DNA from: Microcaldota archaeon
GTDB taxonomy: Archaea; Micrarchaeota; Micrarchaeia; Norongarragalinales; UBA8480
DNA: 29,099 bases
Assembly (NCBI GenBank): GCA_023247085.1
Contig: JAHFHC010000012.1
Coordinates: 1-29,099, forward strand
Reading direction: 5' to 3'
Positions 4,923 through 26,159 of this stretch are shown one piece after another. Each line of letters opens with the position of its first letter. Position 1 is the stretch's first letter. Made by a program: the position numbers and the translations under genes. The notes beneath the pieces were generated by a model. It searched no databases, was not told the DNA's origin, and saw nothing but the letters and a program-made list of their open reading frames with translations.

Positions 4923-5861
4923 TTACAATTTGTATTTTGCTACCCTATGCAAATGAAATAAGTATTGCTGGGCATAACCACAGTATTGGCCAAATTTTTT
5001 GTTGCTAAAGAACGCTAAATCATTGTATGATAAGTTGCGCTTATCTCCTTGTAAGTTACGTAGTTCTGAACCGTAAAAATCGTTTAGGATTTGAAAAACG
5101 TGCGTGTCAATTGGAAACGCATTTGTGTGGCCAAGAGAAAACAAGCAAATACAATCAGCTACTTTAGGGCCAACTCCAGGAAGCGAAAGCAAATAATTTC
5201 GACTATCTGAATAATTCATCTTTTTTAATTTTGATAAATCAAACTGTCCACTTGCGATTAACTCTGCGCTTTGCTTCAAGTAAGCGGCTCTATAACCCAT
5301 TTTACACGCAAGTAAATCTTCAAGAGAAGCAAAGGCGATTTGTTGGGGCGATGGAAAAACAAGGCGCGGATAATCACCATGAGTCGCCGCATTAATACTA
5401 CTAAACTTTTCGCAAAGGAGCTTTACTCGCTCGCGGATCATTGCAACGTTTGAATTTTGCGAGCATATAAACGAAGCGATAGTCTCCCGAGGGTCTTGCC
5501 TTAAAATGCGCAAGCCAGGAAAAGCTTCAAGGGCAGCTAAAAGAACTTCATCGTGTTCACTTTCAATTACAAGCGACTTGATTACATCTGAAAATTTAAA
5601 CCGATCAGCATCAAGAGAAAAATAGTTAACAACATCCGCTTTACTTGCATCAGTATAAACATTTAGCGTAGCAGGTTGTTGCAAAGCAATTACAAACTGC
5701 CCACCTATTGACCCATGCCAAGTTGGAAACTCCGCTGAATCTACTTTAGTCCAAGTAAAAGACTGCGCTGAGCCAAGCGTGTGATTTAAATTAAAGTCAT
5801 TAAAAGAAACGTCAAATGAAAACGTTGGCTCAGTTACAGTTAGTGAAGTAATTCCCTGCAT
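4923..5861 (-). CDS. ogg: 8-oxoguanine DNA glycosylase/AP lyase (OGG1 type)
   Basis: Removes 8-oxoguanine opposite C and nicks the abasic site. 312 residues, the size of full OGG1 with its N-terminal domain (about 1-110), followed by the helix-hairpin-helix glycosylase domain. The hairpin and active site read LLSLPGVGPKVADCICLFSL, where the Lys of GPKVADC is the Schiff-base lysine, and the catalytic Asp is in FPIDTHV. SFICSQNSNVAMI matches the conserved start of the glycosylase domain (family FICSxNNN). The start ATG lies inside the 3' end of glyS (22-nt overlap), so the two form an operon with translational coupling. Full-length OGG1 with its N-terminal domain is the eukaryote-like form and is less common in archaea than the short Ogg2 or AGOG forms. 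Confidence 0.93.
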   Translation of the reverse strand: MQGITSLTVTEPTFSFDVSFNDFNLNHTLGSAQSFTWTKVDSAEFPTWHGSIGGQFVIALQQPATLNVYTDASKADVVNYFSLDADRFKFSDVIKSLVIESEHDEVLLAALEAFPGLRILRQDPRETIASFICSQNSNVAMIRERVKLLCEKFSSINAATHGDYPRLVFPSPQQIAFASLEDLLACKMGYRAAYLKQSAELIASGQFDLSKLKKMNYSDSRNYLLSLPGVGPKVADCICLFSLGHTNAFPIDTHVFQILNDFYGSELRNLQGDKRNLSYNDLAFFSNKKFGQYCGYAQQYLFHLHRVAKYKL

Positions 5862-7354
5862 TTATCCACCAGTTTAGCCATCTTCACACGCTGTTGTTCG
5901 CCTGTATCCCTATCTCTAATAGTAGCGTCGCTTTTTTCAAGCGAATCATAGTCAATCGTAATACAGATTGGTGTGCCAATCTCATCTTGGCGTGCATAAC
6001 GCTTACCTATACTGCCGCTTTCGTCGTATTCAACTGCAAAACCCGAGTCACGCAGTAGTTCAAAAACTTCACGCGCTTTTTCAGCTAAACCATCTTTTTT
6101 CATTAATGGAAACACAGCAACTTTAACTGGTGAAAGAATTGGAGATAATCTAAGTAAATTTCTAACTTCGCCTTTTTCTTCTTTTTGATAAAACGAATCT
6201 AGAATAGCAGTGAAAATTAAACGACCTAAACCCATAGAGGGTTCAATTACAACTGGCACAACTTTACTTTTTGTTTCTTCGTCAAAAACTGAAAAGTCAG
6301 CGCTACTGAACTTACTATGCTGGGTTAAATCGTAATTACCGCGGTTTGCAATACCTTGCAATTCCTTCCAGCCCCACGGGTAATTATAATCAATATCCCA
6401 CGTTTCGCTTGAATAATGGCTCAATTCTGTTTTCACGTGCTGGCGAAAACGAAGGTTCTCTTTCCTAATCCCAATAATCTCAGTGAGGAACTTCATGCAC
6501 TCAACAAGCCAATAAGCATGCCATTGCGTTCCAATAACTTTTTTTTCAAGCAATTCACTTACAGTGAACTCTTCTTGTTTTTTGCCTTTCTCTTGCATTT
6601 CCGCAGTGTAAAAAAACGCCTTGAAATTGCCGTGTTCTTTTGAAAACAACGAGCACACGTTCAATTTATCTGGGTGAATAAAGTACTCAAGTTCAGCTGC
6701 GTCAAATTCCCTTGCGCGGAAAACAAAGTTACGCGGAGCAATTTCATTTCTAAACATTTTTCCAATCTGCGCAATCCCGTACGGTAACTTTTTCCTTGCA
6801 ACGGGGTGAACTGACTTAAACGCGGCAAAAATCGACTGTGCAGTTTCCGGCCGCAAATACACTTTGCTATCTGGGTTCTCAATAACCCCCACTTGCGTAG
6901 CAAACATTAAATTAAAAACGCGAACTTCAGTAAGCTCCCCTTTGTCCTTCGGGCAAACTAACTTATGTTTTTTAATCAACTCTTCAAGAGCCTTCGGGCT
7001 AATGCCGTCAACGCTTAACTTTAACTCATCTTCAATTAATTGGTCAGCACGATAACGCGCTTTGCACTTCTTGCAATCCACCAACGGGTCAGTAAACGAA
7101 TCAACGTGCCCACTTGCCTTCCACACGCGTGGATTAGTAATAAGCGAACCATCTAAACCAACTACATCTTCGCGCAGGGTAACAAAGTGTTTCCACCACG
7201 CGGCTTCAACATTGCGCTTTAACTCTACCCCAATTGGACCATAGTCAAAAAAACCCGCTAAGCTACCATACGCTTCAGCAGTAGGAAAAATCACTCCACG
7301 GCGAGCACACAAACTGATAATTTGTTCAACAACATTCAACTTCTTTTCAACCAT
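5840..7354 (-). CDS. glyS: Glycyl-tRNA synthetase (archaeal/eukaryal alpha2 type)
   Basis: Charges tRNA-Gly. From MVEKKLNVVEQIISLCARRG to the stop is 504 residues. Class II motifs are present: FDYGPIGVELKRNVEAAWW at the N-terminus, motif 2 as MFRNEIAPRNFVFRAREF, motif 3 as VVPVVIEPSMGLGRLIF, then a C-terminal anticodon-binding domain (LSPVKVAVFPLMKKDG). A CKKCKARYRADQLI segment and a later LVCPKDKG suggest a metal-binding insertion, as in the eukaryotic/archaeal enzymes. The frame stays open upstream to 7597, but that extension crosses the divergent tRNA gene and has no family similarity; I place the start at 7354, with an AGGT site about 9 nt upstream (TATAGGTTTTTTGATATG). First gene of an operon with ogg. 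Confidence 0.95.
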   Translation of the reverse strand: MVEKKLNVVEQIISLCARRGVIFPTAEAYGSLAGFFDYGPIGVELKRNVEAAWWKHFVTLREDVVGLDGSLITNPRVWKASGHVDSFTDPLVDCKKCKARYRADQLIEDELKLSVDGISPKALEELIKKHKLVCPKDKGELTEVRVFNLMFATQVGVIENPDSKVYLRPETAQSIFAAFKSVHPVARKKLPYGIAQIGKMFRNEIAPRNFVFRAREFDAAELEYFIHPDKLNVCSLFSKEHGNFKAFFYTAEMQEKGKKQEEFTVSELLEKKVIGTQWHAYWLVECMKFLTEIIGIRKENLRFRQHVKTELSHYSSETWDIDYNYPWGWKELQGIANRGNYDLTQHSKFSSADFSVFDEETKSKVVPVVIEPSMGLGRLIFTAILDSFYQKEEKGEVRNLLRLSPILSPVKVAVFPLMKKDGLAEKAREVFELLRDSGFAVEYDESGSIGKRYARQDEIGTPICITIDYDSLEKSDATIRDRDTGEQQRVKMAKLVDKCRELLH

Positions 7355-7489
7355 ATCAAAAAACCTATAGACAAAATAAGCAAATCCACCTTTAAAAAAC
7401 CACAACGCAAAACAACGAATAAACCCCCCAAAGCAATGCAAATTAAAAACAAACCCCCCTAATAAAAATGCGGGAATAGCAAAGCGGTC

Positions 7490-7580
7490 CGATCCTTTCT
7501 TTTGAAAAATAAAGCATCGATGGAAAGAAAACACACCCTCGAAGCACATTTCAAAAGCAGAAAAAGAACGGATTCCGTAA
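7490..7580 (+). other. tRNA intron 1, D-loop, 91 nt
   Basis: Inserted in the D loop. Proposed bulge-helix-bulge: outer D stem GCA/TGC, central helix GCGG (7484-7487) with CCGT (7575-7578, one G-U), 3-nt bulges TCC (7488-7490) and AAA (7579-7581), inner helix GATCC (7491-7495) with GGATT (7570-7574). Cleavage after the second base of each bulge gives the D-loop sequence AAGCGGTCAAA, with the conserved GG. The exact cut could move by a base; the existence of the insert is much surer than its ends. Confidence 0.82.
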
Positions 7581-7598
7581 AAATGCGGTAGACTCAAG

Positions 7599-7670
7599 AT
7601 CTTGCAAGTAGCGACAACACTTCGCGTTGTCTAAACCTACAAGCAAATTAACTACCAAAACGCATGAGCA
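7599..7670 (+). other. tRNA intron 2, canonical 37/38 position, 72 nt
   Basis: Outer helix GTAGA/TCTAC (the anticodon stem), central helix CTCA (7593-7596) with TGAG (7665-7668), bulges AGA (7597-7599) and CAA (7669-7671). Cutting after the second base of each restores the seven-base loop CTCAAGA. The inner helix right behind the bulge is weak; instead the intron folds on TTGC..GTAG with CTAC..GCAA (7602-7611, 7637-7646) capped by GACAAC/GTTGTC (7613-7618, 7626-7631). Confidence 0.9.
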
Positions 7671-7701
7671 ATCTACTCTCGTATGAGTTCGGGGGTTCGA
7701 A

Positions 7702-7759
7702 GAGCCTTTTCTTTTAAAAAAGAAAAGCCTCGGGAAAAAAACCGACAAAAGCTCGAAAA
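7702..7759 (+). other. tRNA intron 3, T-loop position 59/60, 58 nt
   Basis: Outer helix GGGGG/CCCCC (the T stem), central helix TTCG (7696-7699) with CGAA (7754-7757), bulges AAG (7700-7702) and AAT (7758-7760), inner helix AGC (7703-7705) with GCT (7751-7753). Cleavage after the second base of each bulge restores TTCGAAT exactly. The body holds a 10-bp hairpin CTTTTCTTTT/AAAAGAAAAG with a 2-nt loop. This is a full bulge-helix-bulge motif outside the anticodon loop. Confidence 0.92.
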
Positions 7760-7785
7760 TCCCCCTTCCCGCACTTTATTTTAGG

Positions 7786-7791
7786 TTTAAA
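7786..7791 (+). promoter_or_regulatory. TATA box for pyruvate kinase
   Basis: GGTTTAAAGC, about 32 nt before the pyk ATG, predicts a transcript start near 7815 and a leader of fewer than 10 nt. It begins just after the tRNA terminator, so pyk probably has its own promoter rather than relying on tRNA read-through. Confidence 0.45.
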
Positions 7792-7822
7792 GCACTAGCT
7801 TAAGTGAGGTTGTTGAAACAAA

Positions 7823-9262
7823 ATGAGTTTTCGAAGAACAAAAATAGTTGCTACCCTAGGCCCAGCTTGCGATCCAATAATGGACAAACTAATAGAAGCA
7901 GGGTTAAATGTCGCGAGAATGAACTTCTCACACGGCGACCACGCTGAACATGAAGCACGTTGGCAAAAATTACAAAGTGCAATTAAAAACAGTGGCAAAA
8001 CAATCGCAATTATGGTTGATACCCAAGGGCCAAAAGTTAGAACTAGCACTTTTAAAGATGGTTCAATGGAGTTAATAGAAGGAGAAACCGTTTTTTTAAA
8101 ACAAGGCAATGCCGATGGTGGGCTCATAAACGAAGAAAAAACAATCTACGTAAATTATCACAAGCTACTTGACGCATTAAAAGAACATAAAATAGTTTAT
8201 TTTGCAGATGGCTTACTAGAAGTAAAAGTTGAAGAAGTACACAAAGACAAAGCAAGCGCAAAAGTTATAACTGGCGGAAAAATAAGCAACCATAAGGGCG
8301 TAAACGTGCCTAACTTAGAATGGGATTTACCCGCAATTGGGTCAAAGGACGTTAAAGACATACACTGGGGCATAGCGCACAATGTTGACTATATTGCACA
8401 GAGTTTTGTACGCAATGCAAATGACGTGCGTCAATTAAAAAAAATATTGGAAGACGAAGACGCTAGCCACATTAAAGTAATTGCAAAAATTGAAGAATAT
8501 CCAGCAGTACAGAACATTGACGAGATTATCGAAGTTGCAGATGGAATAATGGTTGCACGCGGAGATTTGGGAGTGCAAATGCACATTGAACAAGTGCCTA
8601 CAGTTCAAAAAATGATTATAAAAAAGTGCAACAGAGCAGCTAAACCAGTAATTACAGCTACTCAAATGCTTGAGTCAATGACAACCGCGCCGTTTCCAAC
8701 TCGGGCAGAGGTTACTGATGTTGCAAATGCAATTCTCGATGGTTCAGATGCGGTTATGTTATCTGGAGAAACTTCAGTTGGAAAGTATCCAATAAAAGTT
8801 ATTCAAATGATGGCTAAAATCAGCCAACAAACTGAAGATAAAGTGTTGAAGTACAACCGATTTGACAAGTACCCTATTGAAAGTGAATCAACTAAACCAG
8901 CTAATGTTACGCTCGCAATTGCAAATTCAGCGTGTAAAATAGCGCTTGAAGTAAAAGCAACTGCAATAATTGCCTATACTGAAACTGGCAGAACGCCAGA
9001 ATGTTTAAGCCGAATAAGGCCAAACATGCCTATAATTGGCATAACTGACGAAGTGAGAACCGCAAGGCGAATGTGCTTATACGGGGGAGTTATTCCACTC
9101 GTGTTAAACGAACATAACAAACTTGACGAAGTGTTAAGACAAGCTACTGATGCTGCACAGCAGACAAAGTTGGTGAAAAAAGGAGACTTAGTAGTAGTTG
9201 TAACTGGATTACCATTTGGGAAAAGTGGAGAAACTAATTTAATAAAAGTACAAACAGTGTAG
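7823..9262 (+). CDS. pyk: Pyruvate kinase
   Basis: Transfers phosphate from PEP to ADP, giving pyruvate and ATP, the last step of glycolysis. 479 residues, full length for the short form, with no extra C-terminal swivelling domain. Motifs in order: RRTKIVATLGPAC at the N-terminus, NVARMNFSHG, IMVDTQGPKVRT, a B domain around 75-160, then the catalytic AKIEEYPAVQNIDEII, VARGDLGVQ (metal and phosphate binding), TATQMLESM, PTRAEVTDVANAILDGSDAVMLSGET (the family signature) and the C-terminal allosteric domain (AIIAYTETGRTPECLSRIRP). It starts just downstream of the tRNA gene. The effector cannot be read from sequence. Confidence 0.97.
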   Translation: MSFRRTKIVATLGPACDPIMDKLIEAGLNVARMNFSHGDHAEHEARWQKLQSAIKNSGKTIAIMVDTQGPKVRTSTFKDGSMELIEGETVFLKQGNADGGLINEEKTIYVNYHKLLDALKEHKIVYFADGLLEVKVEEVHKDKASAKVITGGKISNHKGVNVPNLEWDLPAIGSKDVKDIHWGIAHNVDYIAQSFVRNANDVRQLKKILEDEDASHIKVIAKIEEYPAVQNIDEIIEVADGIMVARGDLGVQMHIEQVPTVQKMIIKKCNRAAKPVITATQMLESMTTAPFPTRAEVTDVANAILDGSDAVMLSGETSVGKYPIKVIQMMAKISQQTEDKVLKYNRFDKYPIESESTKPANVTLAIANSACKIALEVKATAIIAYTETGRTPECLSRIRPNMPIIGITDEVRTARRMCLYGGVIPLVLNEHNKLDEVLRQATDAAQQTKLVKKGDLVVVVTGLPFGKSGETNLIKVQTV

Positions 9263-16475: not shown

Positions 16476-18851
16476 TTATTTGCCGCTTGCGATGGCACTT
16501 AGCACTCCAAGTATTCCGCCAGACCTTGCGTCTAATGAAGTAGCTTCGTTGGTCAAGTCCTTAATTTGACCTTCAAGTTTAGCCACTTGCGCAATGCACT
16601 TCGTTTTACTTTCACCTTCAGCTAATTTCTCACAGTTTTCAGCCAGAACATCCTTTGCAGATTCTAAGTTATCCACTTGTTGTCGCTGCTTTGAAGCCGC
16701 CGCTTTCAAAGTATCTTGGTTTAAACCAAGCAAAGTTAACACTTGCTTAACCGCATCTTGTCTAGCTTCTTGGCGAATCTTTTCAATTTCCTCAGCAGTT
16801 AACACAAGTTTATCACGAGTTGCAGTAAGTTGAACTGCACCTTCACGAGTTTGTCCATCTACCTTGATGTTTTCAAGAGCGGATACGGCATCACCATACT
16901 CCGTTTTACTAACGGAAATAGCCGCACGCGCGCATTCAACTTTTGCCTTCTTTTTAATCAACTCAACAGCGGCATCTAGGTTAGCCGAAGCTTTACATTT
17001 AGCTGCTACGTTTTTCATTTTTTCACAACCTTTAGTTGATTGCTCTACGCAGCGATCATAAGGGTCACCAAAGTGTTCTTTTTGTTTGCAGTACAAGTTC
17101 AAATGCCTCTTGGTCATTTTTGTTTCAAACGCACATCGGGTTTGTACTTGTTGATCCATTTGTTCTTTGAAATTCTGAAAACCATTCAAACAATTGTGTT
17201 TGAAACCCTCTTCAGTACAGAAATCAGGCGAAGAACTTCCTCCGTTGAAACCTGGGAAACCCGGACCACCTTGAGGACCAAAACCTGCGCCACCTTGTGA
17301 GCCAAAATCACCCGAGCCGCCTTGTGGGCCAAAGCCAGGACCTGGGAAACCCGGACCACCTTGAGGACCAAAACCTGCGCCACCTTGAGGACCAAAATCA
17401 CCTGGGCCTAAGTCACTTGGTGCTCTGCCTGGGAAGCCAACTGCCAATCCAGTTACGCTGCTAGCTGCAGTGTGAGCTGTTTCAGGGGCAGGAGATGGGC
17501 TAGGCGAGGGTGATGGACTTGGAGCTGCTTGGGGTTGTGGCGCTGAATTTGCAGGAGGTTGAGAACCCGCTGGAAATCCTCCAGATGGAGGCTGGGAACC
17601 GGCTGGGAAACCACCAGACGGAGGTTGAGAACCCGCTGGAAATTGACTTGGAAAACCACCCGCAGGGGGTTGGTTTGGAAATCCGCCAGATGGAGGTTGC
17701 ATGTTTGGACCTAAATCACCGGGGCCTCTGCCTGGAAATTGACCTTGTGGATTTTGTCCTGGGAAGTTGCCTTCACGACCACCAAAATCACCCGGACCTT
17801 TGCCTGGAAATTGACCTTGTGGGTTTTGACCTGGGAAGTTGCCTTCACGCCCACCGAAATCACCCGGACCTCTACCTGGAAATTCACCTTGCGGGTTTTG
17901 TCCTGGAAAAGCACCTTTGCCAGGGAAGTTGCCTTCTGGAGGGCGGTCGCGCATTTCTTGTTGGAAATCATCAAATTTCTTAGATTCAAATTCTGGTTTG
18001 AAGTCACGGTATTTATCCTGAAAATCTTTTTGTTGGCATTGCTGTTGTAATCTTTGACCTTGCGATTGCCACATTTGATCACACATACTTTCAGCGTTTT
18101 TCTGCGCTTTTGCTTGCTGTTCATTAAAACGAGTTATACACACGTCATTTAATTTTGATTCATCAACTGGGCAAGTTATTTCCTGTCCATCTGGACCTCG
18201 TGGCCCGATATTCTTAAAATCTTCACATAAACTTATGGCATCTTTACAGCTATCAACTGAAAAGTCAACTTCACGGCATACGCCACTAAAGTCAACATCT
18301 TTAAGTAATTCTCTTGCCTTCACGCCAATTGCATCGGCATCCGGACAAAGGGGGCGAAGAGTTTTTTCTGGATCTCCAAGTTTTTCAAATAAAACTGGAC
18401 CAAGATAACCAAGTATCATTTCATCTTCATCAATATGATCAAAGTTGGGCATTAATCTACCTGGACCACCGAATCCGGCACCACCTTGTCCACCAAAATT
18501 AACTTCTACGCCTGGTGCAACTTGTGCAACCCCAACTTGATGAAATTGATCAGCGGCATCTTTAAAATCGCCTCCGCCGAAACCTTGGCTGCCGAAGTCA
18601 CCTGGACCAAAACCTTGACCGCCTTGTGGGCCAAAGCCAGGGCCTGGGAAACCAGGACCACCTTGAGGACCAAAACCTGCGCCACCTTGTGAGCCAAAAT
18701 CACCTGGGCCGCCTTGTGGACCAAAGCCAGGGCCTGGGAAACCAGGACCACCTTGAGGACCAAAACCCGGACCAGCTGGGAAAGGCGCAGCTGTAATTAA
18801 TGATAACATCATAACAAAGCTCGCAAAAGCAATTAATACCGATTTAACCAT
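16476..18851 (-). CDS. Secreted Gly/Pro/Gln-rich cysteine protein (surface-protein trio, member 1)
   Basis: About 791 residues. A signal peptide is clear (MVKSVLIAFASFVMMLSLIT then AAPFPAG). Order of parts: Gly-Phe-Pro-Gln repeats (GFGPQGGPGFPGP); an N-terminal cysteine domain (FSGVCREVDFSVDSCKDAIS, then CPVDESKLNDVCITRF); a repeat tract of REGNFPGQNPQGQFPG units and PPSGGFPAGSQ units; a Ser-Pro linker; a second Gly-Phe block; and a C-terminal domain with paired cysteines (DFCTEEGFKHNCLNGFQNF) and a coiled-coil-like stretch, ending in SGGILGVLSAIASGK. The cysteine domains match the next two genes; the middle does not. The ATG at 18851 is preferred to a GTG 12 bases upstream. Probably exported and disulphide-bonded at the cell surface. 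No membrane anchor is seen after the signal peptide. Confidence 0.88.
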   Translation of the reverse strand: MVKSVLIAFASFVMMLSLITAAPFPAGPGFGPQGGPGFPGPGFGPQGGPGDFGSQGGAGFGPQGGPGFPGPGFGPQGGQGFGPGDFGSQGFGGGDFKDAADQFHQVGVAQVAPGVEVNFGGQGGAGFGGPGRLMPNFDHIDEDEMILGYLGPVLFEKLGDPEKTLRPLCPDADAIGVKARELLKDVDFSGVCREVDFSVDSCKDAISLCEDFKNIGPRGPDGQEITCPVDESKLNDVCITRFNEQQAKAQKNAESMCDQMWQSQGQRLQQQCQQKDFQDKYRDFKPEFESKKFDDFQQEMRDRPPEGNFPGKGAFPGQNPQGEFPGRGPGDFGGREGNFPGQNPQGQFPGKGPGDFGGREGNFPGQNPQGQFPGRGPGDLGPNMQPPSGGFPNQPPAGGFPSQFPAGSQPPSGGFPAGSQPPSGGFPAGSQPPANSAPQPQAAPSPSPSPSPSPAPETAHTAASSVTGLAVGFPGRAPSDLGPGDFGPQGGAGFGPQGGPGFPGPGFGPQGGSGDFGSQGGAGFGPQGGPGFPGFNGGSSSPDFCTEEGFKHNCLNGFQNFKEQMDQQVQTRCAFETKMTKRHLNLYCKQKEHFGDPYDRCVEQSTKGCEKMKNVAAKCKASANLDAAVELIKKKAKVECARAAISVSKTEYGDAVSALENIKVDGQTREGAVQLTATRDKLVLTAEEIEKIRQEARQDAVKQVLTLLGLNQDTLKAAASKQRQQVDNLESAKDVLAENCEKLAEGESKTKCIAQVAKLEGQIKDLTNEATSLDARSGGILGVLSAIASGK
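17251..17375 (-). repeat. Gly-Phe-Pro-Gln coding repeat block, copy 1
   Basis: 125 bp that match 18643-18767 with only about seven differences by eye; each block is itself a repeat with period 90 bp (a CCTGGGAAAC start at 17251 and 17341, and at 18643 and 18733). Two near-identical blocks 1.39 kb apart in one gene suggest a recent copy event or gene conversion. Confidence 0.8.
18643..18767 (-). repeat. Gly-Phe-Pro-Gln coding repeat block, copy 2
   Basis: Second copy of the block at 17251-17375, near the signal peptide end of the gene. Recombination between the two would delete or amplify the whole N-terminal cysteine domain and the repeat tract. Confidence 0.8.
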
Positions 18852-18923
18852 TTTTATCCACACTCCATATTTTATCTAAGAAAAAACACTACACAAACAT
18901 ATTTTAAAAAATCAAATTGTTTT

Positions 18924-21767
18924 CTAACCGCCAAATAGTTTACTTAAAGCACCTAAAATCCCGTTAACATCTGACTCGGAATTTTCTATTTCGCTATCTA
19001 GCGCTTTAATTTGACTATCAATTTGTGCAACTACATTTGAACACTTATTGTCATCTGGCAATTTTTCACAAACTTGTTTTATTGCATCGCGGGTTTCTAC
19101 AAGCTGGTTGCGTTGAGCTTTAAGTTTTTCAATTTTCTCCTTAATTGCGCCAGACTGTAAACCAAGCAACGTCTTAAATCTAATTAACGCATCTGCACGT
19201 GCTTTTTCAGCTTCATCTTTCTTTATTTTTTCAAGTTCACTAACCGTTAACGTATACGTTTTAACTGCATTATCGCCTGCAACTTTATCTGAAACCGACA
19301 CATCTTTCAACACATTTTCAAAATCATCTACTGCTTTTCCTTCTGTTTTGCCGCTGAAGAAAGCACGCTTCTTACACTCAACTTCAACACGTTGGCGAAC
19401 AATTTCAAGGAACTTGGCGTGGTTTGCAAATGTAGAACACTTTGCTGCTTTGCTCTTTAAGCAAGTACAAGCTTTTGCTGCATCTGCTTGACATTTAGTA
19501 TACATATCTTGACCATTGGAATTCGCACAATATTCGCTGAACTTAGGCAAATTGTAGTCAACTTCATGTTCACAGCGAGTTGTTACATCACTTTCGCCTT
19601 GTAATCCATACTGGAAGATTGCGCTTCGACATTTTTGTAAGAAACCTTCTTTGGTGCAGAAGTCACCGGACGTTGCACTTGAAGCGGGATATGACGGCGA
19701 AGTTGCTGAAGTTGTAGCCACTCCAGTTGCGGGCTCGGTTGTAGCTAATTCACCGGCAGCAGTAGCAAAACCACTTATTCTAGCCGGAGCGTGATATGCC
19801 GTATCACCACTTGAACCTGATGGCGGCGTGTAAGAACCACTAGAAGAGCCAGAAGGATATGAACCACCAGAAGAACCAGACGGATATGAACTTCCGCTAC
19901 TTGATGAACCAGACGGATAAGAACCACCAGTACTTGAACCAGACGGATAACTTGAGCCACTTGGATAACTCGAACCAGACGGGTAAGAACCGCCAGTACT
20001 TGAACCAGATGGATAACTCGAACCAGACGGATAACTTGAGCCACTTGGATAACTCGAACCAGACGGGTAAGAACCGCCAGTACTTGAACCAGATGGATAA
20101 CTCGTGCTAGTACTTGAGCTCATGCAAGAGCCGTAAGTTCCGCATGTTTGCCCCGATTGAGGCGGGTTATATTGTGCGTATTGACCAGAAGGACAAGATG
20201 GCGGTTGTGGACATGACCCCATACTCCCGCTGCCTGAAGGTGAAGTTACGCATTGATAGTTAGATGGACACGGTGTATTTTGCCCACTTTGAGCTTGTGC
20301 ATATTGGCCAGCTGGACAACTTGGCATATTTGCAGGCGGGCATGAAGTGCCAGTTGAATTATACCCTCCACTTGTGCTGCCACTGCAAGTGTAGGATGAT
20401 GGACAAGTACTGCCGCTCGCATAGTTCGGTTGAGCCCATTGGCCTGAAGAACAACTTGGCATATTTACTTGGGGGCATGCCGCATTATTCATACTATAGT
20501 TTGAACCACTCGGATAAGTATTGTTGTAACTACCGGTTGGCGAGCCGCCTGCGCAAGTGTAAACCATACAAGTTGCGCTTCCAACATAAGTAACGCCACC
20601 ACCTGTAACCGCTTTGTGACCATCTGGACACGTTTGTGGTTGTGGACAAGCTGCTGGTTCGCACGAATAAGATGGACACATGCCATTACCGTAATTAGTC
20701 ATAGTTGCTATTCTGTCCGAAGTACAAGCAGGCATAGGCGGACAAGATCCGGGCGCGGTTTGCTGGTTTGTTGTACAAGTATAAGCAGTTGGACATTGCT
20801 TTGAATCCCAAGCACTTGGCCGCGAATATTGCCCATTAGTACATTGAGGCATTGAAATTGGAGGACAATTTTGGCCAGGCGTCGGCATTGGATAGGAATT
20901 ATTGTAACCCGGATAATTAGGATATGGCTGGGGGTAGTTTTGCGTTTCACAAGAGTAATACTTGCATTGGTGACCGCTTACATCGTAACTTTTTTCAACA
21001 ACTTGACCATTACAATATTGCTTTGTTCGCTCATCAATTGGCGGACACTGTTGTTCGCCGGTGAAGATTGGTTTGTCTTGTGTGAATTGACAGAATCCAT
21101 TTAGCCACGTGCCTTTATATTCCGCACATTTTTTCTGTGCATCTTGTAACATTTCTGGGTTCAATTCATGCACGCCTTTGAAACTCTTTTCATCTCCTTC
21201 ATTTTTTTGTTGAAGTAATTTGTCTGCAAAATCGCCACTACAATATTTAGCTATTTTATCCGCGTTTCGCGCGTATTCTGCTTCACAAGTGTCAACTAAG
21301 CCAGTAAAGCGAGACTTACAAACGCTAATTAGTTTATCGCGGTCAGGGGGGCAGGACATTCCTGCTTCGCCACCTTTGCCTTTCAACTCTGCGCAGTGGG
21401 CAGCAGATGATTGACATTGGCTAACTTCTGCATCTAAATCCGAGCATAATCCACTTAAGTCCTTACCTTTTGTTTTTTCGTCAATGTAATTTACAATTTC
21501 GTCAACGCCATTTTTATTGGAGCACTTTGCGAAAACTTCGGTTGGATCAATTGATGTGCCTTCAAAAATTGCGCGGCCATAAAGTGATTCAGCATATTGG
21601 TTGTCTGAAAAATCTTCTCTGCATTGCCCAATTAAAAATGATTTGCCTGTCTCAACTTGAATAAAGCCACTCTTGTCGAGTGCAACGTTATCGTTAAAAG
21701 AAGAAAAAGCAACTACAAAAGATGATAAGAAAAGTAAAGAACAGACTATTAATGCAGGATATTTCAT
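18924..21767 (-). CDS. Secreted cysteine-rich modular protein with YPSGSS repeats (surface-protein trio, member 2)
   Basis: 947 residues. Signal peptide MKYPALIVCSLLFLSSFVVA. Residues about 100-190 hold the N-terminal cysteine domain shared with the neighbours (LSGLCSDLDAEVSQCQSSAA, CPPDRDKLISVCKSRF). Residues about 240-560 hold a row of four-cysteine modules of the type CPxxxMPxC..GQ....CPxxYxC (for example CPPANMPSCPAGQYAQ and CPQVNMPSCSSGQWAQ). Then comes a Ser/Gly/Tyr/Pro tract of YPSGSS units, a linker (AYHAPARISGFATAAG) and the shared C-terminal domain (DFCTKEGFLQKCRSAIFQYG, then a long charged helix pair, ending VNGILGALSKLFGG). The start has a TATA box about 25 nt upstream. Probably a disulphide-stabilised surface or adhesion protein; the low-complexity tract may be glycosylated. 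Function is unproven. Confidence 0.88.
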   Translation of the reverse strand: MKYPALIVCSLLFLSSFVVAFSSFNDNVALDKSGFIQVETGKSFLIGQCREDFSDNQYAESLYGRAIFEGTSIDPTEVFAKCSNKNGVDEIVNYIDEKTKGKDLSGLCSDLDAEVSQCQSSAAHCAELKGKGGEAGMSCPPDRDKLISVCKSRFTGLVDTCEAEYARNADKIAKYCSGDFADKLLQQKNEGDEKSFKGVHELNPEMLQDAQKKCAEYKGTWLNGFCQFTQDKPIFTGEQQCPPIDERTKQYCNGQVVEKSYDVSGHQCKYYSCETQNYPQPYPNYPGYNNSYPMPTPGQNCPPISMPQCTNGQYSRPSAWDSKQCPTAYTCTTNQQTAPGSCPPMPACTSDRIATMTNYGNGMCPSYSCEPAACPQPQTCPDGHKAVTGGGVTYVGSATCMVYTCAGGSPTGSYNNTYPSGSNYSMNNAACPQVNMPSCSSGQWAQPNYASGSTCPSSYTCSGSTSGGYNSTGTSCPPANMPSCPAGQYAQAQSGQNTPCPSNYQCVTSPSGSGSMGSCPQPPSCPSGQYAQYNPPQSGQTCGTYGSCMSSSTSTSYPSGSSTGGSYPSGSSYPSGSSYPSGSSYPSGSSTGGSYPSGSSYPSGSSYPSGSSTGGSYPSGSSSSGSSYPSGSSGGSYPSGSSSGSYTPPSGSSGDTAYHAPARISGFATAAGELATTEPATGVATTSATSPSYPASSATSGDFCTKEGFLQKCRSAIFQYGLQGESDVTTRCEHEVDYNLPKFSEYCANSNGQDMYTKCQADAAKACTCLKSKAAKCSTFANHAKFLEIVRQRVEVECKKRAFFSGKTEGKAVDDFENVLKDVSVSDKVAGDNAVKTYTLTVSELEKIKKDEAEKARADALIRFKTLLGLQSGAIKEKIEKLKAQRNQLVETRDAIKQVCEKLPDDNKCSNVVAQIDSQIKALDSEIENSESDVNGILGALSKLFGG
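19936..20103 (-). repeat. Perfect 84-bp tandem duplication in the YPSGSS tract
   Basis: 19936-20019 and 20020-20103 are identical base for base as read, including wobble positions, and keep the frame (28 codons each). The rest of the tract (about 19800-20105) is built of diverged shorter units, so this duplication is recent. Confidence 0.92.
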
Positions 21768-21784
21768 ACATACGTTATTAACGG

Positions 21785-21796
21785 TATATATAAAAG
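21785..21796 (-). promoter_or_regulatory. TATA box for surface protein 2
   Basis: CTTTTATATATA in minus-strand sense, centred about 24 nt before the ATG at 21767, with no ribosome binding site between: a leaderless promoter. The remaining gap to 21923 is A-rich and shows no other feature. Confidence 0.6.
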
Positions 21797-21923
21797 CATT
21801 TCGATAATTTAGTGAAGAGAAAGCGGAAAAAAAAGAGAATAGTTATAAAGAAAATATTTGTAAAAAAAATAGAATTAAAAGAGAAAAAGGAATTAAAAAA
21901 AATTAAAAATATAAATTTAATAG

Positions 21924-24536
21924 TTAACCGCTAATTATACTGCATAATCCGCCGGCATTTTTAGCTTTTTGAATGCACTTGTTATTCAATATTTGAAGTT
22001 GTGTTTTCAATGTATCTGATGCGACTGTTATTTTGGCTTTTTCATCGGGGGATACTTGGAGTGCAGAGAGTATATTTATTGTTTTTTCAAAGGTTTTTAA
22101 TTGGTCAAAGCATTGTCTTGCGCTTGCTTGTTCTTCTCCATCTTTCAGGCAAATTATTCTTTGTAATTCATAAAAAGTGTCTTTTGGTTTAACTGTTTTT
22201 TCAATTGAAACTGAGGCTTTAGCTATATTTGAACTTTCTGCATCGAGTACAGCTGCTGTTTGCGCGGGTAAAACTTCTGATAATTCGTTTAAAGTGTCTG
22301 AGCCTTTAATGGCGCCAACTTCGCATCTGGAATCTACATATTCGTATATTTGGTCGGTTAGTTGCGCTTTGTCTGAGGATACTTGTTTGCATAAGTCAAG
22401 TGCGGAACCGACTACTGAACATGCTTTTTCTATTTGTGCAGTGCATTCAGCATGGGCAGTGTCGGGGGTTTTGCATAATTTTTTAAGCACGTGAATGTTT
22501 TTTGCTTCTTGTTTGCAAATTTTATTGATTTGTTCTGGAGCATAGCTTGTGTAAACTTTAGCTAATACGCTGGCTTCTACGTCCTGTTTAATTTGTTGAG
22601 AATCACATGCAGCTGAGTCAACTGGAAGCGTGTTTGATTCTTGAGGTTGTTCAGGAGGTTCAGAAACAAGCTCGTTTAATTTTGATGGAATCGCCACTAT
22701 CTTGACGGTTATAGGGGTAACTGTTCCTGATGATCCGCCGGATATTGTACGCCGCGCGGTTATCAGATTTGGAAGCTGGCAAGAATAAACCGAGCATTGT
22801 GTAGCGGGGTCAACTGCGCTTGTTTTTGTACAAGTTGTTCCAGAGGTACACGCAGACGCACAAGTAGTTGGACAAACAACTGGAGTTGAAACCGCTGTGC
22901 GGATTGAAATTGGGCCTTGGCATGAATAAATGGGGCAGTGAGTAACCCGATTAATGCTTGTTTTTGTACAAGTTGTTCCAGAGGCACATGCAGACGTACA
23001 AGTAGTTGAACAAACAACTGGAGTTGAACTTGGCGTAACCGTAACAGATGGAACAGTGACAGCAGGAACAGATGTAGACGGATTGAGAATAGGCGGAGTG
23101 GCAGCTGGAGTAACCACTATATTAGTTGAAGTTGGTGTGCATGAAGCTGCGCCTGAAGAAGAAGAAACTGTGCATCTTGAGCAGCTAAATATTTTATCAC
23201 TTATTGTAGCGCCAGTGCAGAAATATTCACGTAGTGAAGTTTCACTTATGCAACTGTCTGGTTGTTCGATTCTGCCAGTTGGAGTTATTCTAGTTGTAAT
23301 GCCTGGTTGAGTTGCATTTTGTCCATTGTCAGTTTCAGTGCAAGTGGGGGTAATTGCATTAGGTGAAGTGATTTGTACACATTGGTAAATTAAGCACTCT
23401 GTTTTTGGGTCAATTCCTTGGCGCAAATCTTGTCCTGGTTTGCAAGTTGGAATATTTGCTTTGGGGCAAGTGGCTGGCTCAGTGTTATCTTGCTTTTGCT
23501 CAAATTCAGGGTTATCTTGATTTAACTCGTTTGGATTATCCGCAGTATTAACTGCATCAGCTATATCCATGATATCAGATGCATCGCTTATACTTCGGGC
23601 GTTTTTGGATTTTCTGCCAAGTGGCTGCGGTTGGTCATCTAAAATCTGGTTATCATCAACTAAATCTGGATTATCTTGATCAACTTGTGTTGATTCATTC
23701 GCTTGCGTTGAATTAGTATCCTGAACTGGCTCAGTGCTTTGATCCACTGCCCCTTCATTTGTGTTAACGGTTATTGGCCCTTTGTTTTGTTTGTGGTTTG
23801 GGTTTCCAAAACATTTGGCGCGACCGTTTTTTACTTTGTAGATATTGCCAACACCTTCACAAGCATTTTTCGTGGCTTCAGTTGCAACAGGCGCAAGTGA
23901 TTCAGCTATATTTTCTCCAGACATGCACGATTGCTTGCGTTCAGTTACGTAGTTCGAAGCGCGTTCACTAAGCGCAGTGAGCAGTGCTTCGGGATTTGAG
24001 AGCGTATTATCTTTCTGCGTGTTTTGGCGGGCAATGCATTGTTCAAGGAGCTTGTCTTCAGATATATCACAAGTGTCTTTAATTGGCTCGCATGCCACGC
24101 TTCCAGCAGAATAACATAAGTCACTGGTCTCAAGCACGTTAGTACAGGCAAATGGCTTTAAATTATTCGCTTGGTCTTCTGCCCATTTTCTAAGATCGGC
24201 CTTATTTCCACAGAGTTGCATTGCGCGGTTTAAGTCTAAAACTCGTTTTATCGCCGAAGCAATGGAGCCATCAGCTACATTACGGCTAGTTAATCGAGTT
24301 GCGATAACGGGGTCGGGTATAATTTGTGCTTTTGCAACTAATCCCACGTCTATAGTTGCTTCGGTTTTTACACTAGTCACCGCGTCTGCATTTGCGCTAT
24401 TAGTATTCGCGCCATCCCCCGCATTTGCGCTATCCACGTCAATAGCCGCTGTAATCGGAGTTAAGGAAAGTAAGACGAATAAAGTTAGGGCAAAAAACAG
24501 GAAAAAAGAGAGAGAAGCAGCGCGGGGTTTAATCAT
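21924..24536 (-). CDS. Secreted cysteine-rich protein (surface-protein trio, member 3)
   Basis: 870 residues. N-terminal signal: basic MIKPRAA then a hydrophobic stretch SLSFFLFFALTLFVLLSLTP. The shared N-terminal cysteine domain is at about 110-230 (KPFACTNVLETSDLCYSAGS, then SEDKLLEQCIARQ). Next comes an acidic Asn/Asp/Gln-rich linker (about 255-355), one four-cysteine module of the neighbour's type (CPKANIPTCKPGQDLRQ), a Thr/Pro/Val-rich tract, and a pair of near-identical modules around SGTTCTKTS (C..CTSAC..GTTCTKT....C.xYSCQ). The C-terminal cysteine and helix domain ends LCSIISG. A minus-strand TATA-like ATTTAAAAATATGG lies upstream near 24570. Same export and disulphide inference as the two neighbours; the C-terminal domain is the most diverged of the three. 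Confidence 0.87.
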   Translation of the reverse strand: MIKPRAASLSFFLFFALTLFVLLSLTPITAAIDVDSANAGDGANTNSANADAVTSVKTEATIDVGLVAKAQIIPDPVIATRLTSRNVADGSIASAIKRVLDLNRAMQLCGNKADLRKWAEDQANNLKPFACTNVLETSDLCYSAGSVACEPIKDTCDISEDKLLEQCIARQNTQKDNTLSNPEALLTALSERASNYVTERKQSCMSGENIAESLAPVATEATKNACEGVGNIYKVKNGRAKCFGNPNHKQNKGPITVNTNEGAVDQSTEPVQDTNSTQANESTQVDQDNPDLVDDNQILDDQPQPLGRKSKNARSISDASDIMDIADAVNTADNPNELNQDNPEFEQKQDNTEPATCPKANIPTCKPGQDLRQGIDPKTECLIYQCVQITSPNAITPTCTETDNGQNATQPGITTRITPTGRIEQPDSCISETSLREYFCTGATISDKIFSCSRCTVSSSSGAASCTPTSTNIVVTPAATPPILNPSTSVPAVTVPSVTVTPSSTPVVCSTTCTSACASGTTCTKTSINRVTHCPIYSCQGPISIRTAVSTPVVCPTTCASACTSGTTCTKTSAVDPATQCSVYSCQLPNLITARRTISGGSSGTVTPITVKIVAIPSKLNELVSEPPEQPQESNTLPVDSAACDSQQIKQDVEASVLAKVYTSYAPEQINKICKQEAKNIHVLKKLCKTPDTAHAECTAQIEKACSVVGSALDLCKQVSSDKAQLTDQIYEYVDSRCEVGAIKGSDTLNELSEVLPAQTAAVLDAESSNIAKASVSIEKTVKPKDTFYELQRIICLKDGEEQASARQCFDQLKTFEKTINILSALQVSPDEKAKITVASDTLKTQLQILNNKCIQKAKNAGGLCSIISG

Positions 24537-24572: not shown

Positions 24573-26159
24573 TTAAATTAATCCCTTGGAAATTTTTTCT
24601 TCAAGTTTTTGCTCTGACTGCAATCGCCCTAATTCATCGTCGTTAAGATGACAAACAAGATATTTAGACGTAAAGGGATAATTGCTCTTGAGTAGTTCAT
24701 ACATTTGCCGTGCAATTAACCTATAAGAATAATGCCCTTGCGGCGTGCTGCGCAATTTAATGAAGTGATGTAATTCTCGGATATTAGCAGTTATTAAAAC
24801 TCGTTTGCGGTAAGCAAGTGGCACAATATACTGTGCTTCCCATGGGTGAACTGGATGAATTCGCCTGAACAACTCATTTGCCTCTTTCATTACTTTTTCG
24901 AATTGCGATTGAACTTCAGCTCCAGATGCAATTATATCCGGCGGAGTATCAAAGCCATGAAAAGTGGTAAGTAATTGATTTGTTTGTGTCATTAATCTAT
25001 GTCGTTGAATATCTCGAAACGCGCCGTAGTCCATTAACACATCAAATGTAAATGAAACGTGTTCTAATTCTCGCATTGGCCAATCGAACTGGCCTTGTCC
25101 TGACAAAAACTCGTCGAACACGCGTTGTTTTGTTTCATAATTCATTGCACGTACGTCAAATAATAATTCGCGAAAAGATTTTTGGGAATAGCGATAGAGA
25201 ATAGCTGAAAGTATAACTTCGTCCGGGTTATGTGGGCCAGCAACAAGCGTAACTGGCCTAATTGGCGGAACCGTTTCCATCGGCACTAACTCTTGAGTTA
25301 ATTTTTCCATGCGCGTTTGCGTGTTTTTGAAATATTGGTTTTCATCTGCGTATTTCAACAACGACGGAAGCACCTTCTTACCCTCTTGTCTTGTAGCCTC
25401 GCCTATTTCACGCATTTCAGCTAACGGGTGCGATAACAATTTAGAAATGCCATGCGCAAGCTGCCGTGCATTAACTGTCCAGCCAATGCTCGTTTTAGTA
25501 CACGCAGGCAATAAATAACGAGTTGAATCAAACCTGCGCGCTGCAGTTGCGCGTTTCCACGCTGCTTCATTCTCTCCAGCTTTAAGCGGAGAACTTTTCC
25601 TAATATAATCAAGCACAGGCTCGGACAAGTTTTGATATGCATCAAACAATTCACTTGTAAGATTAACCACATCACTGCCAAACTTCGAGTCTTTTAATAC
25701 CGCATCAATGTAAAACGAATTCCGATCAAACTCAACATAGCGCGTACTCTTTTCAATATACGACGCAAGTCGATTATCTTCAATTACCTTTGAAGCAATT
25801 ATCGAAACCCCTTCAAAGCACACACCTACAACTGCCCCTTCTGCAACTGACGAATGGCCATAGCCAAGCACCCATTTTTCCATGAATTGAATCGCTTTAT
25901 TAATCGCCGCATCCATTTGCACTTCGCTATTTGTATTTGACAATATTTGTTTGAGCTTTTCAAAATTCTCCGGGTCTTCTTTTAACAATTCTAAAAAACC
26001 CTCACGCATTCCTTTTTGAGAACGAGAATACCTCGCTTGCATGAGCGCCCAAACTTCAGGGTGTAAATTCTTTGTAAGAAAAATTGGTTTATCTAAATTA
26101 GTAAAGAAATGATTCAAAACCAGTGCATCTTCTGCAGAATAATCTACCACAACAAACAA
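24573..26159 (-). CDS. thyX: Tandem ThyX-like protein (FAD-dependent thymidylate synthase family)
   Basis: 528 residues, about twice a normal ThyX, made of two ThyX-like halves. ThyX methylates dUMP to dTMP with methylene-tetrahydrofolate, FAD and NADPH. N-terminal half: GHSSVAEGA, then EDNRLASYIEKSTRYVEF, which lines up with the RHRX7S motif but keeps only the last Arg (130), Ser138 and RY. C-terminal half: LEHVSFTFDVLMDYGAFRDI then QRHRLMTQTNQLLT, which keeps RHR (386-388) but has Leu (396) where the motif Ser should be. So neither half alone has the whole motif. The start is TTG at 26159 by reading frame; a GTG at 26150 is an alternative. The long tandem form occurs in other prokaryotes, I believe, but its activity is not known to me. 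It is the only thymidylate synthase candidate seen here. Confidence 0.87.
   Translation of the reverse strand: MFVVVDYSAEDALVLNHFFTNLDKPIFLTKNLHPEVWALMQARYSRSQKGMREGFLELLKEDPENFEKLKQILSNTNSEVQMDAAINKAIQFMEKWVLGYGHSSVAEGAVVGVCFEGVSIIASKVIEDNRLASYIEKSTRYVEFDRNSFYIDAVLKDSKFGSDVVNLTSELFDAYQNLSEPVLDYIRKSSPLKAGENEAAWKRATAARRFDSTRYLLPACTKTSIGWTVNARQLAHGISKLLSHPLAEMREIGEATRQEGKKVLPSLLKYADENQYFKNTQTRMEKLTQELVPMETVPPIRPVTLVAGPHNPDEVILSAILYRYSQKSFRELLFDVRAMNYETKQRVFDEFLSGQGQFDWPMRELEHVSFTFDVLMDYGAFRDIQRHRLMTQTNQLLTTFHGFDTPPDIIASGAEVQSQFEKVMKEANELFRRIHPVHPWEAQYIVPLAYRKRVLITANIRELHHFIKLRSTPQGHYSYRLIARQMYELLKSNYPFTSKYLVCHLNDDELGRLQSEQKLEEKISKGLI

Follow-up and report, generated by a model that had tools for sequence, protein, structure and literature searches.

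Three-intron tRNAs have been described in the Thermoproteales, where the pre-tRNA-Glu(UUC) of Pyrobaculum calidifontis and the pre-tRNA-Pro(UGG) of P. islandicum are such transcripts (PMC4390854, PMC8450103). The intron-rich genomes of this order carry up to three bulge-helix-bulge (BHB) introns per tRNA, at both canonical and non-canonical positions, and the 46 tRNA genes of P. calidifontis hold 71 introns, against an archaeal average of 0.21 per gene (PMC8450103). Similar introns are found there in different tRNAs and at different positions, which was interpreted as large-scale intron transposition (PMC4033280). Multiple-intron tRNAs have further been recorded for N. equitans, ARMAN-1, and ARMAN-2 (PMC4033280), and the epsilon2 splicing endonuclease (EndA) of ARMAN-2 has broad substrate specificity (PMC6379350, PMC12397907). 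The initial annotation of the DNA studied here had named a few Thermoproteota as the known owners of three-intron tRNAs. Pyrobaculum bears this out (PMC4390854), and the red alga Cyanidioschyzon merolae can be added, as its tRNA-Ile(UAU) has three BHB introns in the D arm, the anticodon loop, and the T arm (PMC9602550).

The tRNA-Leu(CAA) gene examined here lies on the forward strand of a 29,099-nt window, the whole stretch of DNA that was analyzed. It is flanked by a divergent gene for glycyl-tRNA synthetase (GlyRS; 5843-7354, minus strand) and, downstream, by a gene for pyruvate kinase (7823-9262, plus strand). Exon 1 (7470-7489) comprises the 5' strand of the acceptor stem, positions 8-9, the 5' strand of the D stem, and the D loop to 20a, and is followed by a 91-nt intron in the D loop at about 20a/20b (7490-7580). 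Exon 2 (7581-7598) holds the end of the D loop, the 3' strand of the D stem, the 5' strand of the anticodon stem, and CTCAAG with the anticodon CAA; a 72-nt intron at the canonical 37/38 position follows (7599-7670). Exon 3 (7671-7701) supplies A38, the 3' strand of the anticodon stem, the variable arm CTC-GTAT-GAG, the 5' strand of the T stem, and TTCGAA, and is separated by a 58-nt T-loop intron at 59/60 (7702-7759) from exon 4 (7760-7773), which provides T60, the 3' strands of the T and acceptor stems, and the discriminator A73. CCA is not encoded. A flanking AA repeat means that placing the third intron at 7700-7757 or at 7702-7759 gives an identical mature RNA; the latter boundaries are favored by the BHB rule, under which cleavage follows the second base of the bulge, with TTCG/CGAA as the central helix. 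A split or permuted tRNA was rejected, as the exons all lie in order within 304 nt.

The four joined exons, GCGGGAATAGCAAAGCGGTCAAATGCGGTAGACTCAAGATCTACTCTCGTATGAGTTCGGGGGTTCGAATCCCCCTTCCCGCA, amount to 83 nt and fold with an acceptor stem of 7 bp, a D stem of 3 bp, anticodon and T stems of 5 bp each, and a variable stem of 3 bp. The spliced form has what identifies a class II leucine tRNA, namely the CAA anticodon in a seven-base loop, a long variable arm, A73, and a T loop, TTCGAAT, of the form TTCRANN; its D loop has two bases fewer than those of relatives. ARAGORN called the spliced form as tRNA-Leu(caa) and called no tRNA on the unspliced window. An Rfam search of the window at the gathering threshold matched no RNA family, and a group I or other self-splicing intron was rejected on the lack of a catalytic-intron match in that search.

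The exon boundaries were also sought with a home-made dynamic programming scanner that scores cloverleaves in which any loop may hold BHB introns; no junctions were supplied to it. Applied to 7440-7800, it returned exactly these three introns as its top solution with a score of 52.2, the runner-up there scoring 34.1, and the maximum over 200 dinucleotide shuffles was 28.65. ARAGORN, covariation, and the orthologues all agree with the scanner for this gene. The reading of the initial annotation, that removal of 91, 72, and 58 nt leaves four exons forming an 83-nt class II tRNA-Leu(CAA), was thus recovered by the unbiased scan, by ARAGORN, and by comparison with an intronless orthologue.

That each junction forms a BHB, as also claimed there, was upheld: all three pair as a BHB or a relaxed BHB, only the T-loop junction being strict. 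At 59/60 the form is hBHBh'. The D-loop junction, of type HBh', has a 4-bp central helix (GCGG/CCGT) and a 5-bp inner helix (GATCC/GGATT); two A.A mismatches separate these from the D stem, and there is no adjoining outer helix. The 37/38 junction, of type hBH, has the anticodon stem GTAGA/TCTAC as its outer helix and CTCA/TGAG as its central helix, the inner helix being almost absent. When the introns were shuffled and the exons held fixed, the BHB pairing was equaled or exceeded at frequencies of 5e-5 for the D-loop, 8.5e-4 for the anticodon-loop, and 2.2e-3 for the T-loop junction.

Comparison with related genomes revealed a Leu(CAA) gene without any intron in G008, a member of the same order, in which GGTCAAATGCG, CTCAAGATC, and TTCAAATCC run uninterrupted across the junctions, so that all three are fixed. 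Eight genomes have the 37/38 intron only (G005, G007, G010, G014, G017, G022, G025, and G026), three have introns at 37/38 and 59/60 (G020, G021, and G023), and two (G004 and G006) have only an intron in the variable arm. The D-loop intron is absent from all of the orthologues compared (G004-G008, G010, G014, G017, G020-G023, G025, and G026). In G004 and G006 the gene adjoins the start of GlyRS, matching the arrangement found here; synteny was seen in these two genomes only, and in named relatives a motif check of the DNA next to GlyRS turned up no Leu(CAA) gene.

The mature sequence of the present gene was aligned with those of 11 relatives, giving a readily aligned set of 12 sequences in which 98.6% of the cells are paired. 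Changes on both sides were seen in 14 of the 23 pairs, where shuffles give 4.6, and sliding the partners abolished the covariation signal. The third and sixth acceptor pairs are changed on both sides in the present gene alone, the third from A-U to G-C. These changes tie exon 1 to exon 4 and indicate that the pieces have been selected as one molecule.

Two of the three introns have relatives elsewhere in the genome. The family hairpins are A/T-rich, which inflates similarity, and Z-scores were computed against dinucleotide shuffles. On this measure the T-loop intron matches the anticodon-loop intron of tRNA-Pro(UGG) with a Z of 10.2, GAGCCTTTTCTTTT..AAAAAAGAAAAGCCTCGGGA being near-identical between the two, and the first 54 nt of the D-loop intron match the 53/54 intron of tRNA-Leu(UAG) with a Z of 9.5, CATCGATGG being near-identical. 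The 37/38 intron had no relative among the introns compared (best Z 2.2). T-loop introns have in common CCTTTTCTTTT..AAAAGAAAAG, a second hairpin, and a CGAAAA end. A covariance model, R1, made from the T-loop intron found 18 members in this genome at E<1e-5, six in each same-genus genome, and 10 and 14 in two genomes of the same class (G009 and G039), with none in 45 of the 60 genomes. A family member of about 65 nt is also inserted in the 690 loop of the 16S rRNA gene (G000:C28:1546-1625, minus strand; L180); it begins with AACCCTTTTC after cggtaaaa, ends with GGTTTACAA before tgttgtaatc, and has a GTAA/TTAC central helix. By their sequences, the introns in the D and T loops of Leu(CAA) are members of a family that also occupies 53/54, the anticodon loop, and 16S rRNA. 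Most relatives are interrupted at 37/38, so the intron found there in the present gene is probably older, and the D- and T-loop introns are probably later arrivals copied between sites.

The genome is an 892-kb draft, 92% complete, with an archaeal 16S rRNA gene (RF01959, 1420 bits), in keeping with the small-genome archaeal host that the initial annotation had proposed. Only 11 matches to the tRNA model RF00005 exceeded the cut-off. Further tRNA genes were rebuilt from weak RF00005 matches together with matches to R1, so that the tally is our own count over the matched regions, a non-exhaustive census in which some boundaries are tentative. It comprises 39 rebuilt genes: seven without introns, nine with one, 19 with two, and four with three, the last including tRNA-Phe(GAA), which probably has three introns and whose second junction lacks a good BHB. 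The 32 interrupted genes contain about 59 introns, or about 1.5 per rebuilt gene. The Gln(UUG) gene (G000:C3, near 24983) has three introns of 37, 63, and 61 nt and a scanner score of 51.5. That of the initiator Met tRNA (G000:C5, about 12.2-12.6 kb; L174) yields a flawless 75-nt cloverleaf on removal of introns of 41, 46, and 64 nt; the first follows position 9, the second lies at 30/31, and the third at 59/60. The counterparts of the first two in G002 (L207), a genome of the same genus, are nearly identical, and that of the T-loop intron differs in sequence. In the genes for Leu(UAG), Leu(CAG), Gly(GCC), and Pro(GGG) (L178, L182, L018, and L187) the T arm is interrupted twice, by introns at 53/54 and at 59/60, and the exon between them is six bases long (TTCAAA or TTCGAA).

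Other irregular tRNA loci were seen in this census. The 5' parts of tRNA-Tyr (L007) and tRNA-Thr(UGU) (L017) are tandemly duplicated immediately upstream, in L007 together with the leader, and in both the duplicated parts are separated by intron-like hairpin sequence; these duplications are possible intermediates of gene disruption. A conserved tRNA near 46.0 kb of G000:C24 (L173; L198 in G002) has a clear T-loop intron and an anticodon arm that resisted rebuilding.

The subunit type of EndA, which the initial annotation had suggested checking, proved to resemble that of ARMAN-2. PF01974 matched twice within one frame at about 1785-2378 of G000:C26, a frame broken by a run of N at an assembly gap. 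The genus relative G002 has an intact copy (387 aa when read from the first listed start) that matches the present copy on both sides of the gap and is near-identical to its readable parts. Residues 11-387 of the G002 protein align with ARMAN-2 EndA (4FZ2, 9W2K; E 6e-128 for 4FZ2) along its length as a single alphaN-alpha-betaC chain. Conserved in it are residues whose roles in ARMAN-2 EndA have been named (PMC12397907): the catalytic triad Y236/H251/K282 and the recognition residues R275 and W384, as well as Y160 and K161 of the ARMAN-specific loop, K228, and S252. In most relatives searched, PF01974 likewise matches twice within one frame, of roughly 380-440 aa. The splicing endonuclease of this genome is of the epsilon2 type, like the broadly acting one of ARMAN-2, which suits the broad substrate range that the initial annotation had predicted. 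An RtcB ligase is also encoded (E 2e-172).

We consider it very probable that the locus is a functional tRNA-Leu(CAA) gene, probably single-copy, with three BHB introns, of which those in the D and T loops come from a spreading family. After transcription, the epsilon2 endonuclease would excise the introns by cutting at their BHB and relaxed-BHB junctions, RtcB would ligate the four exons, and CCA would be added to the joined tRNA; expression of the gene in the cell, cleavage, ligation, and the order of splicing are here predictions from sequence. The D- and T-loop introns would be copies of a family that moves between structured RNA genes of the genome, probably in two steps: an excised intron would be reverse-spliced into a tRNA or rRNA, and the product would then recombine with the gene. 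We infer this route of spread, and the broad specificity expected of the enzyme would let such insertions be tolerated.

Three other explanations were weighed. The scanner's grammar is flexible and permits many introns, so tRNA-like pieces might fit together by chance into a three-intron solution; the gap between the real score and the best of the shuffles, the intronless orthologue, identical at 79% of positions over most of its length, and the shared position beside GlyRS in G004 and G006 refute this, and we assign it a negligible probability. A decaying pseudogene, in which insertions broke Leu(CAA) and Leu(UAA) took over the decoding of UUG, would suit the insertion-like character of two of the three introns, and a tRNA-Leu(UAA) is also encoded in the genome; it could decode UUG by wobble, making the Leu(CAA) gene non-essential. 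Nevertheless, no stem of the spliced form is broken, exons far apart show paired changes specific to this gene, BHB pairing is kept at all three junctions, and indispensable tRNA genes such as that of the initiator Met bear introns of the same kind, so that decay is very unlikely. As evidence against its reading, the initial annotation would have taken an intact Leu(CAA) elsewhere in the genome together with a lack of spliced reads from this locus. No second copy was found in the assembly; as this is only 92% complete, a further one may still exist.

The third alternative concerns the introns and not the gene. Their likeness might reflect A/T-rich hairpins shaped by selection for the BHB, the three introns being independent in origin. 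Hairpins of C/T and A/G runs are indeed simple sequence, many of the introns share this core alone, and the 37/38 intron is unrelated to the others. Near-identical stretches across isotypes and positions, and matches of the T- and D-loop introns that beat every dinucleotide shuffle, make separate origins improbable, though less so than pseudogene decay.

Compared with the described systems, a functional three-intron Leu(CAA) gene is of a known kind, and what is new is the spreading intron family in a DPANN-type lineage. Intron density is near that of P. calidifontis, but the lineage is another one and the EndA of the Thermoproteales is a heterotetrameric (alpha-beta)2 enzyme, where the present one is of the epsilon2 type. 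The transposable introns of that order likewise occur in different tRNAs and positions, whereas the present family, in its separate host lineage, reaches 16S rRNA and 53/54. C. merolae is a eukaryote, and its introns lie at 12/13, 37/38, and 53/54 rather than at about 20a/20b, 37/38, and 59/60. ARMAN-1 and ARMAN-2 (Micrarchaeota) are closest in having small archaeal genomes, the same three-unit EndA, and multi-intron tRNAs (PMC4033280, PMC12397907), but no such intron family or Leu(CAA) counterpart has been described for them in these reports, and we take them as another lineage. Placement of the present host rests on the archaeal 16S rRNA gene and on GlyRS, whose nearest named relatives are deposited as 'archaeon' or Woesearchaeota. 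In the open-access literature we found no report for Woesearchaeota-like genomes of this pairing of lineage and epsilon2 enzyme, of the reach of the family, or of the micro-exons.

Elsewhere in the window, a 528-aa open reading frame (24573-26159, minus strand) has two tandem ThyX (Thy1) domain matches. Three consecutive genes (16476-24536, minus strand) encode large proteins that are rich in Cys, look secreted, and contain low-complexity repeats; a Pfam scan of one of them (21927-24536) gave no match.

On balance, we favor the view that a DPANN-type lineage has undergone a tRNA-intron invasion, in which one family of BHB introns of roughly 55-120 nt was transposed to the D loop, the anticodon loop, 53/54, 59/60, and the 16S 690 loop and gave rise to four-exon tRNAs, including the initiator, and to six-base T-loop micro-exons, with an epsilon2 EndA as the enabling enzyme and independently of the Thermoproteales. 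Most tRNAs of such genomes escape the standard tRNA model, as the 11 matches over the cut-off illustrate, and completeness estimates and claims of 'missing tRNAs' for small archaeal genomes may therefore be biased. The finding adds one more archaeal lineage, with another type of enzyme, to those that have three-intron tRNAs. It bears on the idea that a broad-specificity endonuclease releases the spread of tRNA introns: similar intron densities would have arisen twice, in separate lineages whose endonucleases differ in architecture. Because some related genomes have a given intron and others lack it, the mechanism of gain can be traced.
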